Shown here piece by piece: positions 4,465 through 13,753 of a stretch of DNA of 64,000 nucleotides; the first letter of the stretch is position 1, and every line of letters begins with the position of its first letter. Below the pieces are notes generated by a model. It worked only from the letters and a program-made list of their open reading frames with translations, had not been told where the DNA came from and made no database searches. This DNA comes from Herminiimonas fonticola (GTDB lineage: Bacteria; Pseudomonadota; Gammaproteobacteria; Burkholderiales; Burkholderiaceae_D). The stretch covers positions 186,001-250,000 of the forward strand of contig NZ_PTLZ01000002.1 in assembly GCF_003293745.1 (NCBI RefSeq), in the 5' to 3' direction. Position numbers and translations under genes: made by a program.

Positions 4465-5862
4465 ATGGAAATGTCTGAGGATTCCAGATCAGAGTACATG
4501 ATCAAGAAAGAGTGGTTGACGAAGCTCGGCCTGGGGCTAGCCTTGTTCCTGCTCGTGCTGATTTCTTTCGTGACTTTTAATAGCGTCGATCAGTTTGAAA
4601 ATAGTTCAAAGCTGGTTGACCACACACATCTTGTTATCAAGCAAATCAATCAGATCGTGTCTGATGTGAAGGATGCGGAGTCCGCACAACGGGGTTATCT
4701 GATTACTTCCGAAGAATCGTTTCTGCAAGCACATCACGATGTGGTTGTCGAATTGCCGATAGAGATTAGCACGCTGAAATATCTGACGAGGGACAACCCC
4801 GAACAGCAGAAGACAATTAGTACCCTTGAAGAGTTAATCGACAAACGCATGCGGACCTTGCGTTTGGGTATCGATATGTTGGCGGATCGTGGTGCGATCA
4901 GTGGCCAGGAAGTGAGTGATCTTGTGGGGGGCAGTGGCAAGCAGGCGATGTCGCAATTGCGAGGACATGCTGATTACATGATCGCCGTCGAAGATAAATT
5001 ATTGGGTGAGCGGGCTCGACTAGTGGAAACCAAGGCTAGCTCAACCAAACTGTGGATTTTGTTTGGTAATTTTGTGGCGATGGTGCTGCTGCTTTCTGCG
5101 CTTTTTTTGATTTTGCTGGAAATCAAACACCGCAAAGATGCGCAACGATCAATAGAAAGAACGGCAGCGCAGTTGGAACTTACGAACAAGGAACTGGAGA
5201 GCTTCAGCTATTCCGTTTCACATGATTTGCGTTCACCGTTACGTGCGATTGATGGTTATTCGCGGATGTTTGAAGAAGACTTCGCTGATCGTCTGGATGA
5301 TGAAGGACGCCGCTTGCTGTCAGTCATTCGTGTCAGCAGCAAGAAGATGGGGCAGTTGATTGATGATTTGCTGGCTTTTTCACGCATGGGACGCAAGCCG
5401 GTCGATACGTCGAAGGTTGACATGAACGCCTTGGTCGATGAAGTCTGGTCAGAAGTCTGCGCCAGCTCCAGAACTTCATTGCCACTGAAGAAATCAAATT
5501 TGCCTGCAGCGTGGGGCGATCGTGCTTTGTTGCGGCAAGTGTTGATGAATTTGCTGGCGAATGCAGTGAAATACAGCAGCAAAAAGTCTGAACAGCTGAT
5601 CGAGATTACGGCGAAGCAAGGCGAACACGAAGTTGTATATAGCGTGCGCGACAACGGTGTCGGTTTTGATATGCGTTTCTATAACAAGCTGTTCGGTGTC
5701 TTTCAGCGATTGCATACAGAACATGAATTTCCTGGAACAGGTGTCGGGTTGGCCATTGCGCAGCGTGTCATTGTGCGCCATGGTGGACGGATCTGGGCCG
5801 AGAGCAAACCGGACGAATATACGATTTTTAATTTCAGCTTACCTAAAGAGGCCACCGCATGA
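4465..5862 (+). CDS. CHASE3-domain sensor histidine kinase
   Basis: A membrane histidine kinase of 465 residues. A first transmembrane helix (about 18-38) and a second (about 195-220) flank a periplasmic CHASE3-type four-helix sensor that contains the typical DVKDAESAQRGYLIT motif. The cytoplasmic part has a HisKA domain with the phosphate-accepting His253 in YSVSHDLRSPLRAI. It also has an HATPase domain with NLLANAVKYS, DNGVGF and GTGVGLAIA. There is no receiver domain. This layout is close to kinases that pair with Rcp1-like single-domain regulators, and exactly such a gene follows, overlapping by four bases (ATGA). The ligand is unknown. An internal ATG at 4498 is an alternative start. Confidence 0.9.
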   Translation: MEMSEDSRSEYMIKKEWLTKLGLGLALFLLVLISFVTFNSVDQFENSSKLVDHTHLVIKQINQIVSDVKDAESAQRGYLITSEESFLQAHHDVVVELPIEISTLKYLTRDNPEQQKTISTLEELIDKRMRTLRLGIDMLADRGAISGQEVSDLVGGSGKQAMSQLRGHADYMIAVEDKLLGERARLVETKASSTKLWILFGNFVAMVLLLSALFLILLEIKHRKDAQRSIERTAAQLELTNKELESFSYSVSHDLRSPLRAIDGYSRMFEEDFADRLDDEGRRLLSVIRVSSKKMGQLIDDLLAFSRMGRKPVDTSKVDMNALVDEVWSEVCASSRTSLPLKKSNLPAAWGDRALLRQVLMNLLANAVKYSSKKSEQLIEITAKQGEHEVVYSVRDNGVGFDMRFYNKLFGVFQRLHTEHEFPGTGVGLAIAQRVIVRHGGRIWAESKPDEYTIFNFSLPKEATA

Positions 5863-6308
5863 ACGACGATATGCAACCAGTGCATATTCTGCTTGCAGAA
5901 GATACGCCCACCGATGCCGAAATGACTTTACGTGCGCTCAAGAAGGTGGGCCTCGTCAACAATATTACCTGGGTCAAGGATGGACAGGAAGCGCTGGATT
6001 ATATTTTTCGTGGTGGCGATTTTACGGATCGGATCACGTCTGATCCGACCTTGATCATGCTCGATCTGAAAATGCCCAAGGTGAATGGACTTGAAGTCTT
6101 GAAGATGATCAAGACCACGGATACGACCAAGCTCATTCCAGTGATCATGCTGACGTCCAGCGCAGAAGAACCGGACATCGTGCGTTGCTATGAACAGGGC
6201 GTGAATAGTTACATCGTCAAGCCGGTTGAGTCGGACAAGTTTTTTGAAGAAGTTTCAAAGGCGGGTTTCTATTGGGCGATCCTGAATAGAATTCCCGGAG
6301 CACGATAA
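5859..6308 (+). CDS. single-domain response regulator (Rcp1-like)
   Basis: A stand-alone receiver domain of 149 residues, starting MNDDMQPVHILLAEDTPTDA. The acidic pocket is AED, the phospho-acceptor is Asp69 in IMLDLKMPKVNG, the switch Thr/Ser lies in MLTSS, and the conserved Lys in YIVKPV. Long receivers of this type, with an insert after helix 2, belong to the Rcp1/CheY-like group that takes phosphate from phytochrome-like or CHASE kinases. It overlaps the kinase gene by four bases and lies 26 bases before the LOV-GGDEF-EAL gene, so the three are almost certainly one operon. It has no output domain, so it probably acts by protein contact or as a phosphate relay. Confidence 0.9.
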   Translation: MNDDMQPVHILLAEDTPTDAEMTLRALKKVGLVNNITWVKDGQEALDYIFRGGDFTDRITSDPTLIMLDLKMPKVNGLEVLKMIKTTDTTKLIPVIMLTSSAEEPDIVRCYEQGVNSYIVKPVESDKFFEEVSKAGFYWAILNRIPGAR

Positions 6309-6334: not shown

Positions 6335-8794
6335 ATGATTAAAATCCTCATGGTGGAAGATACGCCGACCGATGCTGAACTCGCTTTACGCGAGTTGAAG
6401 CGGGGCGGCATTCAACATCAGGCAAGACGGGTTGAAACCGAGAAAGAGCTGCGGCATGAGCTACTCGACTTCAAGCCGGATGTTGTTTTGTCGGATTTTT
6501 CCATGCCGCATTTTGACGGCTTGTCCGCGCTCAAGGTTGTGCGTCAGGAGCAACCCGACCTACCATTTATTTTTGTCTCCGGTCGTATAGGCGAAGAGCT
6601 TGCTATCGAATCCCTGAAACTGGGCGCAAGCGATTACGTCATCAAGACCAATTTGTCACGCCTGCCGAGCGCGGTTGCACGTGCGATGGAACATGTGGAA
6701 CAAAGAGATGCGCGGCGCCGCATAGAGACAGAACTGATGGAAAGCAATTTGATGTTCCGCACTTTCATGGAGAATTTGCCGGGTGCAGCCTTCATCAAGG
6801 ATAAGGATGGTCGCTATCTGTACGGGAATCACGGCCTGGACAAGGCATTCAACGTTGAGAAGGGCTATTCCATCGGCAAGCTCGATACTGAACTGGTGCC
6901 GGTTCAAGTTGCGCATAAATTGCGTGAGATGGAAACGCGAGTAACGAACGCCGGCAGTGCTTTGCAGGAAATTGAAGCGATGTCGATGCCGTCGGGCGTG
7001 ACATATTGGCTATCGACGAAATTTCCGCTGGTGGGCGAAAACAGTAATTCACGACATATCGGCGGCATCGCGATCGAAATAACAGAGCGTATGAAGGTCG
7101 AACAAGACTTGTTGTTGCGTACGCGCGCGATCGAGGCTTGCGTTAATCCCATCGTGATCGTTGATACCGCAGCGCCGGGTATGCCGATGATCTATGTCAA
7201 CGGTGCGTTTGAAACAATCACCGGCTATACAAGTGAAGAGGCGATAGGCCGTAATTGCCGTTTCCTGCAAGGTACGGATACCGACCAGCCCGAGCTCGGT
7301 AAATTACGCGCGGCGATACGTGAACAGCGTCCCGCATCTGTCTTGCTGCGTAATTATCACAAAGACGGCAGCATGTTCCTGAACGAACTGTACATCGCAC
7401 CTGTTAGTGAAACGATAGATGGCAGCGGCGCAGGACATTTTGTCGGTGTGCTGTATGACGTCACGCAGATCAAGCGTTATCAGGAAGATCTGGAGCATCA
7501 AGCCAATTACGATACGCTGACTGGCCTTGCCAATCGCAACCTGCTTAACGAACGTACGCAGCAGGCGTTGATACACGCGCGTCGTCATGATCAATTCCTC
7601 AGTCTGGTGTTTATCGATCTGGATAATTTCAAGCTCGTCAATGACAGCATGGGACATGGCGCTGGGGATGAATTGATTGCCAATGTCGGCGCGCGTTTGC
7701 AAACCTGCATACGTGACGGCGACACTGTCGCGCGTATTGGCGGCGATGAGTTCGTGCTGCTGCTGACGAATCAGAATCCAGGCGACAGCAATTTGACGGT
7801 GATGCAGCGCATTCAACAAGAGTTGACCAAGCCGATGTTGATTCGCAGCCAGGAGCTTGTGGTGACGTGCAGTATGGGTATTGCGCGCTTCCCGGAAGAT
7901 GGCGAGGATTCGGAATCTTTGCTGGCGAATGCCGATGCAGCGATGTACCGAGCCAAATCAAATGGCCGCAATAATTTCCAGTTCTATACGAAGGAAATGA
8001 ATGCAACGACTGGCGAGCGACTGTCGCTGGAAAATGACTTGTGGCACGCAATGGCGAATGATGAACTGTTCCTTGTTTATCAGCCACAAATCGATTTCCG
8101 TGATGGTTCCGTGGTTGGGATGGAAGCCCTGATTCGTTGGCAGCATCCGAAGCGCGGACTGATCTCGCCTATGGATTTTATTCCGATGGCAGAATGCAAT
8201 GGCTTGATTATTCCGATTGGTATCTGGGTTATGGAAACCGCCTGCAAACATAATCTGCAATTGCAGAAAGAAGGTTTGCCGCCGATACGCGTGGCGGTCA
8301 ATTTGTCTGCGCGCCAGATTGGCGAGAGGAATTTTGTTCAAACCGTCAAGGATGTGATCGATGCTACCGGACTCGACCCTTCCTATCTGGAACTTGAAGT
8401 CACCGAAAGTATGGTGATGCATAACATCCAGGAAGTCGTGGTGATTCTGAACAGCTTGAACGAGATGGGCATTCAATTGTCGCTGGATGATTTTGGTACT
8501 GGCTTCTCCAGCCTGGCTTATCTGAAACGTTTTCCTATCGATCGCTTGAAGATTGATCAATCCTTTATCTTCCATTGCGATAGCGATCCGGGCGATGCGA
8601 TCATTTCGCAAACCATCATTGCACTGGCACACGGACTGAAGATCAAGGTCATTGCCGAAGGCATAGAAAAACCGGAGCATTTTGCCTTCCTGAAAGAAAA
8701 TGGCTGTGATGAAGGACAGGGTTATTTCATCAGTCGACCACTTGCATTCAAGGACTTGCGTAAGCTATTGATTAGCAGACAAAACCTTCATTAG
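6335..8794 (+). CDS. REC-PAS-LOV-GGDEF-EAL cyclic di-GMP enzyme
   Basis: An 819-residue soluble signalling protein. Domains in order: receiver (1-120, Asp54 in VLSDFSMPHFDG); PAS (about 140-255); a LOV-type PAS (about 265-378); GGDEF (about 385-550, intact GGDEF at 469-473, inhibitory-site R460-D463); and EAL (about 565-815). The EAL domain shows EAL at 597, NLSARQ, EVTES, LDDFGTG, LKID and AEGIE, so cyclase and phosphodiesterase motifs both look intact. The LOV domain has GRNCRFLQG with Cys308 and flavin-contacting Asn340 and Asn350. The usual flavin-contacting Gln in FVGVQ is Leu373 (FVGVLYDVT). Light sensing is inferred from family knowledge. Phosphorylation by the upstream kinase is likely but unproven. 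Confidence 0.92.
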   Translation: MIKILMVEDTPTDAELALRELKRGGIQHQARRVETEKELRHELLDFKPDVVLSDFSMPHFDGLSALKVVRQEQPDLPFIFVSGRIGEELAIESLKLGASDYVIKTNLSRLPSAVARAMEHVEQRDARRRIETELMESNLMFRTFMENLPGAAFIKDKDGRYLYGNHGLDKAFNVEKGYSIGKLDTELVPVQVAHKLREMETRVTNAGSALQEIEAMSMPSGVTYWLSTKFPLVGENSNSRHIGGIAIEITERMKVEQDLLLRTRAIEACVNPIVIVDTAAPGMPMIYVNGAFETITGYTSEEAIGRNCRFLQGTDTDQPELGKLRAAIREQRPASVLLRNYHKDGSMFLNELYIAPVSETIDGSGAGHFVGVLYDVTQIKRYQEDLEHQANYDTLTGLANRNLLNERTQQALIHARRHDQFLSLVFIDLDNFKLVNDSMGHGAGDELIANVGARLQTCIRDGDTVARIGGDEFVLLLTNQNPGDSNLTVMQRIQQELTKPMLIRSQELVVTCSMGIARFPEDGEDSESLLANADAAMYRAKSNGRNNFQFYTKEMNATTGERLSLENDLWHAMANDELFLVYQPQIDFRDGSVVGMEALIRWQHPKRGLISPMDFIPMAECNGLIIPIGIWVMETACKHNLQLQKEGLPPIRVAVNLSARQIGERNFVQTVKDVIDATGLDPSYLELEVTESMVMHNIQEVVVILNSLNEMGIQLSLDDFGTGFSSLAYLKRFPIDRLKIDQSFIFHCDSDPGDAIISQTIIALAHGLKIKVIAEGIEKPEHFAFLKENGCDEGQGYFISRPLAFKDLRKLLISRQNLH

Positions 8795-9102: not shown

Positions 9103-9696
9103 GTGAATATTTATATCTGTGGGCAAAAGCACTTCGGTGCAGAAGTTTTTTCCTTGTTGTCGAATGCCGGACACACCATTGTCGGCGTCTCCGCACCAGC
9201 CTTGAACGGCGATGGTGGTGACGATCGTTTGAAAGCAGTGGCAGAAGCCGCTGGCGTCAAATGGATGAAGTCGGGTTTGCTGAATGAGAACACCATTCCG
9301 GACAACGTCGATCTGATCGTTGCGGCGCATTCGCACGATTTCATTCGTGAGCCGACGCGTGCAAAAACGACGCATGGTGCAATCGGTTACCACCCTTCGT
9401 TGTTGCCGCTTCATCGTGGCAAGGACGCGGTTATCTGGACGATCCGCATGGGCGATAAAGTCACTGGTGGCAGTGTCTACTGGTTGAATGAAGAGATGGA
9501 TGGCGGCCCGATTGCAGCGCAGGAACATGTATTTGTAATGCCTGACGATACGCCGGAAACGCTGTGGAAGCGTGACTTGGCGCCGTTGGGTATTCGTCTG
9601 TTATGTGATGTCTGTAACGACATCGCACACGGCAAGATCGTCAAGCAAGTGCAGGATGAAAGCATTGCGACGACCGAACCGTCGATCAAGAAGTAA
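9103..9696 (+). CDS. formyltransferase-like protein with altered active site
   Basis: A 197-residue protein of the formyl transferase N-terminal fold (the fold of Fmt and PurN). It starts with a Rossmann-like MNIYICGQKHFG, carries YHPSLLPLHRGKDAVIW with the conserved His97 and the SLLP loop, and has the conserved Asp133 in EMDGGPIAAQ. The catalytic Asn that normally sits two residues before the His (N-x-H) is Gly95 here. It also lacks the C-terminal tRNA-binding domain of Fmt. A formyl-folate reaction is therefore doubtful; it may belong to a divergent subfamily with another acyl donor or a different chemistry. Translation starts at GTG. Neighbours give no pathway hint. Confidence 0.75.
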   Translation: MNIYICGQKHFGAEVFSLLSNAGHTIVGVSAPALNGDGGDDRLKAVAEAAGVKWMKSGLLNENTIPDNVDLIVAAHSHDFIREPTRAKTTHGAIGYHPSLLPLHRGKDAVIWTIRMGDKVTGGSVYWLNEEMDGGPIAAQEHVFVMPDDTPETLWKRDLAPLGIRLLCDVCNDIAHGKIVKQVQDESIATTEPSIKK

Positions 9697-9801: not shown

Positions 9802-10710
9802 GTGAAACACATCAAACAAGTTTGGCGTGCAGCGACGCGTTCGATTGCAGTGATGCTGGCTATCGGATTTGTCACTGGATGTGCGAGCTCCACTGCAGAT
9901 CGTTATCGCACTATTGAACAGGAAGCAGCTGCCTCTGGATTTTCAGCATTACGTTTTGACCTTGCTCCGCCAGTGATCGGGATGCTGCGTGCGTCCGGGA
10001 TTTCACAAGCTGCGTCACGCAACGAACCGCAAACTCTGTGGGTCATGATCGAAGGTGATGGTCGTGCCTGGTTGAATGTGCGGGAGCCGTCACGTGATCC
10101 AACGCCTGTCGATGCGGTCGGCTGGCGGCTGGCGCAAAACATATCCAGGGACAATGTGCTGTATCTGGCGCGACCTTGCCAGTTTCTATCGTCGATTGAA
10201 TTGCAGGCATGTTCCGTTGACGACTGGACCAATGCACGTTTTTCTGAAAAATGGGTAGGGCGTTTGAATGCAGCGATTGATGATGCCAAGCGTACTACGC
10301 GTGCGCGACAGATCGTTGTCGCTGGATATTCTGGTGGTGGCGTCATGGCTGCATTGATTGCGGCGCGACGTGACGATGTTGCGATGCTGATTACGATTGC
10401 CGCTCCACTCGATCATGCGGCGTGGACAGCACATCATGGCGTAGCGCCATTGAAGGGTTCGCTAACTGTCTTGTCGGTGAGAGAAAGATTGATGCGTCTG
10501 CCGCAAGTGCATGTGACAGGTGCCGAGGATAAAGTTGTGCCAACTGGCTTGCTGCAGGATTTTTTGCGTGCGTATCCGGCGGATGTCCCGGCAGAGCTTG
10601 TGACCCTGCCCGGGATCGATCACCGTATGCGTACGCAGATCGACATCAGTCGCATCAGAAGTTCCAGATTGCTTTCGCAGTCAATTGATGGCCGAGATAC
10701 TTATCCTTGA
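9802..10710 (+). CDS. lipoprotein alpha/beta hydrolase
   Basis: A 302-residue predicted lipoprotein of the alpha/beta hydrolase fold. I chose the GTG at 9802: it has GGGGAA upstream and places a proper signal (basic start, hydrophobic AVMLAIGFVTGC lipobox) at the N-terminus. A longer frame from 9727 would bury it. The nucleophile elbow is AGYSGGGVM, a GxSxG variant. A later Asp lies in TGAEDKVVP and the catalytic His is probably in PGIDHRM. The substrate is unknown; esterase or lipase-like activity in the periplasm is inferred. Its 3' end overlaps the convergent autotransporter gene by 56 bases. Confidence 0.75.
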   Translation: MKHIKQVWRAATRSIAVMLAIGFVTGCASSTADRYRTIEQEAAASGFSALRFDLAPPVIGMLRASGISQAASRNEPQTLWVMIEGDGRAWLNVREPSRDPTPVDAVGWRLAQNISRDNVLYLARPCQFLSSIELQACSVDDWTNARFSEKWVGRLNAAIDDAKRTTRARQIVVAGYSGGGVMAALIAARRDDVAMLITIAAPLDHAAWTAHHGVAPLKGSLTVLSVRERLMRLPQVHVTGAEDKVVPTGLLQDFLRAYPADVPAELVTLPGIDHRMRTQIDISRIRSSRLLSQSIDGRDTYP

Positions 10711-13700
10711 TTTCCATATCGTAGCCAATTGCAATCGTGGTGCCTTCTGCTGTGACATTGCGATAACCGAATCCAAGCTGCAAGGAGTCACGTGCCGGTT
10801 GTGTGCCATCGAGACGGAATGATGGACCGCCGCTGGCGAAGGTGGCGTTGATCGCCGGAGTATCTGCAAATTCATGCAGGTAACGGGCACGCAAAGTCGC
10901 ACTGGAAGCTGCACTCAGTTTGTTGACGAACTCCACACCCAATACGCTTTGAGCTGAATTGGCACTTGCGCTGCCAACGTTTTGCGCCGAAGCACCGCCG
11001 TTTTCCGAGTACGCGTCGTTAGCGAGATAGCCAAGACGTGCACCCATTAACCAGCGACCACTCCATTTTTCATCCAGTGCAAACGGGATGCCGTATTCGA
11101 CACGCGCACCGACTTGATAGCCTGAGTATTTGCCGCTCAGTGTTTCGGTAAAGCCTGGGATGATGACCGTGCGTTGGCTGGAATAACGATTGGCAGAAAT
11201 CGCGACACCTGCATCCAGGGTGTAGCTGGCATCGGTACGGCTGAAGTAGGCACCGACATGGGTGGATTTGACGTCGGTATCATCGCCTGCGCCGCTATCT
11301 TTGCCGTCGCTGCCAGCTTGCGTATATCCGCCGGAGAAGCCCAGCATGTCGCGTGTGTTCAGATCGAACTCATAACCGACCGCCAAACCTTGCGCGTCGA
11401 GATCGTAACCATTCGCCCCTTTACGTGCATCCTGTTTGGCGATGGCTGCCAGCCCTTGCAACCAGAATCGATTGCCTACTGAGTCGCCACCAGAGAGGCC
11501 GGTTTTGCCCATCGCAAGTGGGCCGCCACTACGTGCGCTATCAATACGATTATCGAAGGCAGAGAACACGCTGCCTTGTGCAGCGCTTGCTGCTGATTGC
11601 GCGGCCGCATTGGTTTCCGGTGCGAGTTGTGCAGCGGCTTTGCCGACTGCTTCTGCATTTGGCAGCGATTCCAGCGCATTCAACAGGTTCACACTGGATT
11701 GCGAACCTGTGCTCAGCATTGCTTGCATACCGTTAGTGAACGCCACGCCGTTTTGTGGAGCAAGCGTTGCCAGGCTTTGTTCACGATGCGCGATCAGTTT
11801 TAGATCGTTGCCATCTTTTACCAGCGTGTAGGTCAGGAAGTTCGAGGTGCTATCAACCGTGAGGTTGGCCGCAGTTGCACTGAGTGTGCCGGCATTTAGC
11901 AGAGTGTAAGTCGTGCCGTCCGTTACATAGCCGTTCAAAATTGGACGTATGGTTGCACCATCTGTCAGTGTTGCAGCGCTTGTCACCGCAAGTTTGTCGC
12001 TCGCGCCGTTTGCACCAACGCGCGCTTCAAGTACGCCGGTCGCTGCCTGTACATAATTTCCTGCAACGCTGACGGTACGGAAAGCACCGCTGTCTGGTGC
12101 CTGCAAGGTACCGTTGACAGTCAGGTTGGTAGTAGCAAATGAGCCGTTGACGCGCAGATTGCCACCGAGGACGCTGATGGTCTGGAAGTTACGCAAGCCG
12201 CCATCAGCGAAACTTTGTGTGCCGTTGGTGTCCAATGTGTTAACGCCAGCGCCACCATCGATAGAGCCGATCACCGTGCCTCCCAGCAAATGCAGAGTAT
12301 CGTTGCCGTCGCCCATATCGATTGCCATACCGTTCCTGCCTTCGATACGGCCGGAGTTGCTCAAGGTATCGTTACCGCCACCCATCTGGATCGCGGCTGC
12401 GGCTGTGGAGCTCAGCAATTGATCGACGCGTACAGCGTTGGCACCGCCGATGATGACGCCGGTAGCACCATTGGTAACCGTGTCGTCGAAATTTCCTACC
12501 AGGCCGATCGCTACCTTTTGATCGCCAGTGATGGTGCCATTGTTGGTAATGGTGACGATGCCGCCGACACCCACACCTGAAGCCGCAGTGCCACGACCTG
12601 CGGCCGTTGCTGTGCCGTTTGCGCCGTCATCCACCAGAATGCCGTTACTCTTGCCCCAGATTGATGCGCCCGCATTGTTTGTAATGGTGCCGCCGCCCAT
12701 CGCGATGCCGTCACCACCATTTGGTTTGCCACCGGAATCGAAGCCACCACCACCCAGACCTTCAATACGTCCGTAATTGCTTACAGTGCCGATACCGTCG
12801 ATATCGACGCCATCACCGTCGCCATTGCTGGTGGTGCTGATGCCGCCGGTTCCCGGTTGCTGGAATGCATTGCCTTCGCCGGCATAGCGGCCGCTGATGG
12901 TGCCGTAGTTGGTCACTGTCGCGGTGCCATCGCTGCCGACGCCTGAACCGTTGCGGCCTATGATTTGGCCGCCGAGCTGATTCGTCACCGTAACTGCGTT
13001 ATCTGCGGTGATGCCGTGGCGCGGGCCGCTGATGGTGCCGTAGTTTTCAACAACGACGCCAAGATTGCCACCGATATCGATCGCATCGCTGGCACTGATC
13101 GCACTGTTGCACGCGGTGCCCAGATAGTCAGGGCATTTCGTATTGACGATGCCATTGCTGATGATCGTGCCGTAATTTGTAATCGTCGTATTGCTGCCGG
13201 CGCGAATCGCGTCATCCGCATCTGCACGAATCGTCGCTGCCGTGTTGGTGGCCGAGCCGTTGGTAATAAAGCTGCCAGTCGACGTTGCGCCAATGCCGCG
13301 AGAATCAATCGCTTGGCCCGCAGCCGCGCTGCCCGTACTCTTTTGCCAGATGGTGCCCTGATTATCGATCTGTATCGCGATGTTCGCTTTATTGGTGCGA
13401 ATCACATCATTGCCAGCAGCGGATATGATCGCGCCAGCTGCGTTATTCAGAATCAGTTTGACCCCGTTTCCAGTCACATCAATCGTGCGCTCGGTGCCGG
13501 TTTGTTCGATCGTGCCCGCGTTATTCAGCGTCGCTGCACCGCTTGTGCCAGTCACGGTGACAGCGATGGTCGCGCCGCCGAGACTCAAGCTTGCGCCGCT
13601 ACCGACTGTGCCGGTGTCGCCAGCGGCCAAGGTCTTTGTCGCCGTGCCGGAATCGGTAGGAATCGTGAAGCTCGCTGCCCACAATGGTGAGCAAAAGGCT

Positions 13701-13753
13701 GCCTGCAAAGCGATGACGAGGGGAAGCGGACGCAGCGAATGACTGAAACGCAT
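10655..13753 (-). CDS. type V autotransporter (1032 aa)
   Basis: A classical monomeric autotransporter. A signal peptide of about 26 residues (ending SPLWA) precedes a passenger rich in Gly, Thr, Asn and Ala. The passenger has many imperfect repeats such as VTNYGTISG and TITNNG, typical of a right-handed beta-helix. From about residue 765 (GNRFWLQGLAAI) to the end is the outer-membrane beta-barrel, finishing with the C-terminal Phe signature (AIWNF). The passenger has no obvious protease or lipase motif, so adhesion is the likeliest role. The stop lies inside the convergent hydrolase gene. The upstream region holds a Fur-like box. Confidence 0.88.
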   Translation of the reverse strand: MRFSHSLRPLPLVIALQAAFCSPLWAASFTIPTDSGTATKTLAAGDTGTVGSGASLSLGGATIAVTVTGTSGAATLNNAGTIEQTGTERTIDVTGNGVKLILNNAAGAIISAAGNDVIRTNKANIAIQIDNQGTIWQKSTGSAAAGQAIDSRGIGATSTGSFITNGSATNTAATIRADADDAIRAGSNTTITNYGTIISNGIVNTKCPDYLGTACNSAISASDAIDIGGNLGVVVENYGTISGPRHGITADNAVTVTNQLGGQIIGRNGSGVGSDGTATVTNYGTISGRYAGEGNAFQQPGTGGISTTSNGDGDGVDIDGIGTVSNYGRIEGLGGGGFDSGGKPNGGDGIAMGGGTITNNAGASIWGKSNGILVDDGANGTATAAGRGTAASGVGVGGIVTITNNGTITGDQKVAIGLVGNFDDTVTNGATGVIIGGANAVRVDQLLSSTAAAAIQMGGGNDTLSNSGRIEGRNGMAIDMGDGNDTLHLLGGTVIGSIDGGAGVNTLDTNGTQSFADGGLRNFQTISVLGGNLRVNGSFATTNLTVNGTLQAPDSGAFRTVSVAGNYVQAATGVLEARVGANGASDKLAVTSAATLTDGATIRPILNGYVTDGTTYTLLNAGTLSATAANLTVDSTSNFLTYTLVKDGNDLKLIAHREQSLATLAPQNGVAFTNGMQAMLSTGSQSSVNLLNALESLPNAEAVGKAAAQLAPETNAAAQSAASAAQGSVFSAFDNRIDSARSGGPLAMGKTGLSGGDSVGNRFWLQGLAAIAKQDARKGANGYDLDAQGLAVGYEFDLNTRDMLGFSGGYTQAGSDGKDSGAGDDTDVKSTHVGAYFSRTDASYTLDAGVAISANRYSSQRTVIIPGFTETLSGKYSGYQVGARVEYGIPFALDEKWSGRWLMGARLGYLANDAYSENGGASAQNVGSASANSAQSVLGVEFVNKLSAASSATLRARYLHEFADTPAINATFASGGPSFRLDGTQPARDSLQLGFGYRNVTAEGTTIAIGYDMEIKDKYLGHQLTAKAIWNF

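Follow-up and report, generated by a model that had tools for sequence, protein, structure and literature searches.

The flavin glutamine of LOV domains was long held to be essential for passing the light signal on. Dietler et al. 2022 (PMC9098866, accessible in part) described about 350 natural LOV receptors that are deficient in this residue and mostly carry Leu or Ile instead. This LOV-delta-Q class is defined by at least eight of nine YtvA residues (G59, N61, C62, R63, F64, L65, Q66, N94, and N104) together with the lack of Gln at the position of Q123. According to the same text, the engineered variants YF1 Q123L, NmPAL Q347L, and AsLOV2 Q513L retain adduct formation and signalling, with dark recovery slowed approximately 10-, 1.2-, and 22-fold, respectively. 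Gln-less mutants often respond more weakly, and AsLOV2 Q513L has half the CD change (PMC9098866). The paper also includes a natural Met-type LOV-GGDEF fragment, taken from a LOV-GGDEF-EAL protein of M. loti, in which blue light represses.

Among proteins that join LOV to a GGDEF domain, LadC (MsLadC, PDB 8c05) has a complete and highly conserved flavin pocket and no EAL or receiver domain (PMC10396304 and PMC12805367, accessible in part). The accessible text of these two papers also states that earlier LOV-GGDEF constructs cut from LOV-GGDEF-EAL proteins showed no light regulation. In the genus Herminiimonas, a 2014 census and review (PMC4844311) reported three LOV-GGDEF/EAL proteins in Herminiimonas arsenicoxydans. 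That review calls the flavin Gln of LOV important, and its accessible part contains no discussion of Gln absence in the H. arsenicoxydans proteins; we can only guess that these are of the same kind as the protein described below.

Here we analyzed a 64,000-nucleotide stretch of Herminiimonas fonticola DNA (contig NZ_PTLZ01000002.1, positions 186,001 to 250,000; hereafter, the window), which encodes a LOV protein in a three-gene operon (Table 1). Judged by its residues, this protein is a further case of the already described LOV-delta-Q class. New here are the conserved operon of a CHASE3 kinase, a response regulator, and the LOV protein; a Gln/Leu pair formed with a relative from another family (L412); and counts of Gln loss by output domain.

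Table 1 Features of the LOV operon, in window positions
Feature	Position	Strand	Basis or detail
CHASE3-HisKA-HATPase sensor histidine kinase, first gene of three	4465..5862	+	Pfam CHASE3, HisKA, HATPase_c
Single-domain response regulator	5859..6308	+	Pfam Response_reg
REC-PAS-LOV-GGDEF-EAL protein	6335..8794	+	819 aa ORF
Receiver domain, aa 4-112	6344..6670	+	Pfam REC
First PAS domain, aa 146-252	6770..7090	+	Pfam PAS_4
LOV domain, aa 265-378, GRNCRFLQ with Cys308	7127..7468	+	Pfam PAS_9 281-378, PDB alignments
Cys308 (TGC), adduct-forming cysteine	7256..7258	+	Codon read-out; Cys in 9/9 orthologues
Leu349 (CTG), next to the second flavin Asn, a site that is usually Trp	7379..7381	+	Alignment
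Leu373 (CTG), flavin glutamine position	7451..7453	+	PDB alignments
D-V-T motif and helical linker to GGDEF, Asp375-Asp393	7457..7513	+	18 residues
GGDEF domain, aa 390-547	7502..7975	+	Pfam; GGDEF 469-473
EAL domain, aa 567-802	8033..8740	+	Pfam EAL

Domain architecture and flavin pocket

The Pfam domains of the window protein lie in the order given by the preliminary description, and the motifs that it regarded as intact are conserved. In the receiver, E8, D9, D54, S82, and K104, which we take to be the set of phospho-acceptor Asp, acidic pair, Ser/Thr, and Lys, are unchanged in 9/9 orthologues. The same is true of residues 469-473, D428, N436, and D445 of the GGDEF domain, presumably its GG[DE]EF signature and metal or substrate residues, and of an RxxD (R460 and D463) five residues upstream of the GGDEF motif that we assume to be the inhibitory site. 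In the EAL domain, E597, N656, E688, E691, D718, D719, K739, E775, and Q795, to which we ascribe signature and metal-binding or catalytic roles, are likewise unchanged in 9/9. The sequence requirements for a putative diguanylate cyclase (GGDEF), c-di-GMP phosphodiesterase (EAL), and receiver are thus all in place, while the sign of the light effect (c-di-GMP made or degraded) is not readable from sequence. Linker spacing of 18 residues is the commonest among both Gln (23/24) and non-Gln (22/25) relatives in a simple motif search in which 55 rows were unmeasurable, and in the linker at aa 379-389, 91% of the columns are invariant among eight orthologues.

Codons and alignments agree on the adduct-forming Cys308 and the two flavin asparagines named previously (Asn340, AAT at 7352; Asn350, AAC at 7382). 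A phmmer search with the second PAS domain against PDB sequences gave 143 matches at E ≤0.001, the best among those listed being Meiothermus Mrub_1259 (9vf7), YtvA, and Pseudomonas short LOV proteins. Leu373 is faced by Gln in 5/5 alignments to solved LOVs (9vf7, 9vf8, YtvA 2pr5 and 2mwg, and PpSB2-LOV 7a6p; E 2e-28 to 5e-25), which bears out the earlier assignment of this Leu to the flavin Gln site. In these alignments the last LOV strand is ungapped, gaps being confined to the preceding loop, which rules out that another residue supplies a Gln at this structural position. An AlphaFold2 model of aa 236-400 (45 sequences) has a core pLDDT of about 90, and its top Foldseek/PDB matches are LOV structures; the full-length model (pTM 0.38) has low confidence and is uninformative on domain packing.

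All nine residues of the LOV-delta-Q filter are present (G305, N307, C308, R309, F310, L311, Q312, N340, and N350, where at least eight are required), and the residue matching YtvA Q123 is not Gln; the window protein therefore fits the definition of that class. With Leu373, it falls outside the canonical LOV domains, which carry the flavin glutamine on the last strand. That the window protein acts as a LOV photoreceptor is what we infer from these features.

As far as the accessible description of the M. loti protein WP_140774521.1 goes, both it and the window protein have a LOV domain fused to GGDEF-EAL, the pocket residues of the filter, and no last-strand Gln. The M. loti protein has Met at the Gln site, whereas Leu373 and Leu349 are present in the window protein, in which REC and PAS domains precede LOV; a receiver and an operon are described here for the window protein, and none is mentioned for M. 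loti in that accessible text. The Leu of the window protein is one of the commonest replacements in LOV-delta-Q receptors (PMC9098866, accessible part). AsLOV2 Q513L (PDB 7pgz, dark; 7ph0, light) and YF1 Q123L have the same substitution at the same position, but these were engineered from Gln-bearing receptors with different outputs, whereas the window protein is natural. LadC resembles the window protein in its LOV domain, helical linker, and GGDEF domain (8c05 is Foldseek rank 11), but the absence of Gln and the presence of EAL place the window protein outside the LadC group. The preliminary description had further offered the locus as a way into LOV signalling that does without Gln; in this it was anticipated, because engineered Gln-to-Leu mutants and the natural LOV-GGDEF fragment had already addressed such signalling (PMC9098866, accessible part).

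Constraint within the genus

The search of the genus covered 13 genomes (H. fonticola itself and 12 others), eight of which contain a full-length orthologue of the LOV gene with 71% to 100% identity. Cys, both Asn, and Leu are kept in 8/8 of these separately assembled orthologues, and the Leu codon is CTG in six of them, TTG in a seventh, and TTA in the last, which rules out a sequencing error behind Leu373. The LOV domains of the other seven orthologues are 77% to 93% identical to that of the window protein. Invariant columns make up 69% of LOV, 68% of REC, 65% of GGDEF, 61% of EAL, and 35% of the first PAS, which is the least conserved domain among the eight. In three comparisons (with L009, L011, and L012), the LOV domain has a dS of 0.88 to 1.54 and a dN/dS of 0.04 to 0.07, a pace about that of GGDEF and EAL, versus a dN/dS of 0.06 to 0.17 for the first PAS. 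Since Leu is found in 8/8 orthologues through three different codons and at low dN/dS, it appears to be held by selection and to be no recent accident; by this evolutionary evidence, Leu373 is selectively maintained in the genus. The constraint and the intact motif also rule out a decaying pseudo-LOV for the window clade.

Within this genus, the LOV-like domains of paralogous proteins no longer carry the Cys and are missing parts of the motif. In the H. fonticola genome itself, a paralogous PAS-GGDEF-EAL protein (L002, G000:C5:164787-166484) is 50% identical over residues 245-812 and has Leu for Cys and Ser for Asn in its LOV-like domain, with Gln kept; among its relatives in the genus, the Cys site holds Ile or Leu, and the Gln site holds Gln, Leu, or His. 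Four others in the genus (L150, L153, L163, and L189) form another paralogue group with Ser at the Cys site and Met at the Gln site, so that neither signalling residue is present, and keep both flavin Asn. A second, short LOV-GGDEF protein of about 320 aa with Gln and no EAL occurs in G010 (L252) and G004 (L253) of this genus, so that G010 has LOV proteins of both the Gln and the Leu type.

Further variants were observed in other genomes. Genome G081 contains two close LOV-GGDEF-EAL paralogues (L149/L213 and L127), one with Gln and the other with His at the flavin Gln site and the Cys kept. Gln-to-His blocks the photocycle in YF1 and AsLOV2 (PMC9098866, accessible part), and therefore one copy may be light-blind. 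A LOV-GGDEF-EAL group with the genus code g35 (L146, L190, L195, L202, L273, L275, L280, and L284; about 640 to 730 aa as read) has Leu at the Gln site, Ser or Cys for the second flavin Asn, an intact adduct Cys, and apparently an extra PAS after LOV (by eye in L275).

Operon and genome context

The start codon of the response regulator overlaps the kinase stop by four bases, and the LOV gene follows the regulator after 26 bases. This gene order is kept in 7/7 orthologous loci and in L412 (8/8 compared). At E 1e-40, four near-complete genus genomes without the LOV gene (G001, G002, G005, and G011) give no kinase match, and the fifth genome that lacks the gene, G004 (90% complete, 350 contigs), contains a kinase fragment only. 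The earlier idea of a phosphorelay input to the LOV protein gains from the conserved upstream kinase and response regulator, which would be its plausible source. Searches of the H. fonticola genome found neither a second LOV with an intact motif nor a BLUF match, so a light role of the window protein would not be redundant with a sensor of these kinds.

A formyl transferase-like gene (window 9103-9696, plus strand; Pfam Formyl_trans_N) lies 0.3 kb downstream of the LOV gene, and in 4/7 genus loci such a match lies no more than about 1.4 kb from the LOV gene. Further on, a 1032-aa ORF (window 10655-13753, minus strand) has a repeat-rich passenger and, by eye, the look of a C-terminal autotransporter barrel.

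A Gln-bearing relative with the same operon

L412, from a genome of the same order and a different family (G869), is 58% identical to the window protein over 814 aa and has the same domain order (Pfam) and the same three-gene operon. It differs in having Gln (FVGVQ, codon CAA) at the position of Leu373 and Trp at that of Leu349. In a tree of 78 Cys-bearing LOV-GGDEF rows (284 columns, with the Gln and Cys columns excluded), L412 is the nearest relative outside the genus and is joined to the window clade at 100/100. The window clade and L412 are, by sequence comparison, a natural Gln/Leu pair sharing one operon.

The tree requires at least eight changes between Gln and non-Gln. Two-state models with equal rates (lnL -27.47) and with loss only (lnL -28.20) are separated by a gap too small to favour either. 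Under equal rates, the ancestor that the window clade shares with L412 is unlikely to have had Gln (P = 0.07), which implies regain in L412, whereas the loss-only model has Gln lost in the window's genus. The double change of the window protein, Leu for Gln and Leu for Trp, also occurs in a LOV histidine kinase (L355, genome G1013). Trp349-to-Leu is thus seen in the window clade and in this Gln-less kinase, but also in L394, which has Gln, and these events are too few to establish it as a companion of the Gln-to-Leu change.

Gln loss across LOV proteins

Genomes were searched with a strict DNA pattern for the LOV motif G-x-N-C-x-F-L-Q, which misses LOVs with variant motifs. Matches were found in 105 of 392 genomes of the family (142 places, hand count), 21 of 369 of the class, 54 of 399 of the order, and 43 of 398 of the phylum, and the reversed control pattern had 0 matches in the family and one each in G547 (class), G935 (order), and G1358 (phylum). 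The census took all family, class, and order places and 46 of the 66 phylum places (hand counts). After identical sequence windows were merged and ORFs <100 aa excluded, 242 remained, two of which were not LOV domains. Six pattern matches lay beyond this set: five chance non-LOV frames and L029, a LOV-GGDEF-EAL protein with Gln. Output classes were assigned by phmmer against the GGDEF and EAL domains of the window protein and two kinases; some loci end 1.5 kb past the motif, and EAL may be missed in these.

A residue other than Gln is present in 58/86 LOV-GGDEF-EAL proteins (36/41 in the family and 22/45 outside it; 58/87 with L029), in 5/18 LOV-GGDEF proteins without a visible EAL, in 4/98 LOV kinases (family 0/81, outside 4/17), and in 2/38 short or other LOV proteins. 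The raw counts of 58/86 LOV-GGDEF-EAL versus 11/154 give a Fisher p of 4e-23. On well-supported branches, an independent-pairs test has only two pairs, a number at which significance is unreachable. The Gln of a D-x-D-Q-P loop is found in 63/63 Gln-less LOV-GGDEF(-EAL) rows versus 17/41 Gln-bearing rows. Because this loop Gln is common to all 63, the Gln-less rows appear to be largely one larger lineage; since the counts are non-independent, we treat the association of Gln loss with GGDEF-EAL output as a lead and claim no independent enrichment. We found no report of this excess in the titles and abstract starts searched, a scope that excludes supplements and most subscription papers.

One conceivable reading of these counts, which we regard as rather unlikely, is that Gln loss is a repeated, selected adjustment specific to LOV sensors that act on c-di-GMP through GGDEF-EAL tandems. 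A hydrophobic residue (here together with Leu349) would then be actively kept for a long-lived signalling state that suits slow lifestyle decisions, and the Gln flip would go unused.

Proposed mechanism and alternatives

The window protein is probably a Gln-deficient (LOV-delta-Q) blue-light receptor that tunes c-di-GMP, and the most likely mechanism would combine a normal Cys adduct with a Gln-free relay and slower dark recovery. FMN in the LOV pocket would take up blue light and form the usual adduct with Cys308, upon which flavin N5 would be protonated. As Leu373 has no side-chain flip, the change in N5 hydrogen bonding would reach the central beta-sheet by another route, for which a transient water is the published proposal. 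The altered beta-sheet would in turn act on both the dimer and the linker helix (375-393) and shift the activity of GGDEF, EAL, or both. Leu373 would also be expected to slow the dark return and cause a slight blue shift of absorption, so that the protein would integrate its light input over a longer period. A second input would come through the receiver, for which the neighbouring CHASE3 kinase is the probable partner. Signature residues that are complete except for Gln, the slow evolution of the LOV domain, the conservation of Leu373 and of the operon, and the light responses published for the engineered Leu mutants and the M. loti fragment count for this explanation. The often weaker responses of Gln-less mutants count against it, as does the replacement of Trp by Leu349 beside Asn350, since the surroundings of the pocket therefore differ from those in the characterized Leu mutants.

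A narrower version, compatible with the receptor explanation, would have light act on EAL only, with GGDEF in a regulatory role such as GTP binding. In GGDEF-EAL tandems, the GGDEF domain is often regulatory and the EAL domain active. Light sensing in LOV-GGDEF-EAL proteins has also been suggested to aim at EAL (PMC10396304, accessible part). The active-site and RxxD residues of the GGDEF domain are, however, unchanged in 9/9 orthologues, and we hold this version to be possible, if tentative.

It is unlikely, in our estimate, that the adduct forms and the signal is uncoupled, with Leu373 (and Leu349) making LOV a structural or constitutive module and leaving control to the receiver and kinase. 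The conserved phosphorelay partners would agree with such an arrangement, as would the persistence of Cys-less LOV-like paralogues in the genus as PAS-GGDEF-EAL proteins, which indicates that the architecture is viable without Cys-based light sensing. However, Cys and both Asn are kept in 9/9 orthologues under strong constraint, and the Cys-less paralogues are also missing parts of the pocket motif, except for the four with both Asn kept. Least probable is a domain that serves mainly as a flavin redox or ligand sensor and keeps its Cys for other reasons: LOV signalling through flavin reduction without Cys has been argued (PMC9098866, accessible part), but the adduct Cys is unchanged in 9/9 orthologues and the genome yielded no second LOV with an intact motif and no BLUF match.

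Implications

On its own, the window protein extends a published class by a single case, and its setting could matter more. The natural test of Gln-independent signalling that the preliminary description had hoped for is best provided by the pair with L412 and the common operon. As one operon occurs with Gln (L412) and with Leu (eight species), the effect of the residue is testable in naturally evolved proteins, beyond engineered mutants. If the excess of Gln loss in LOV-GGDEF-EAL proteins survives wider, phylogenetically balanced sampling, it would mean that LOV signal relay depends on the output served.
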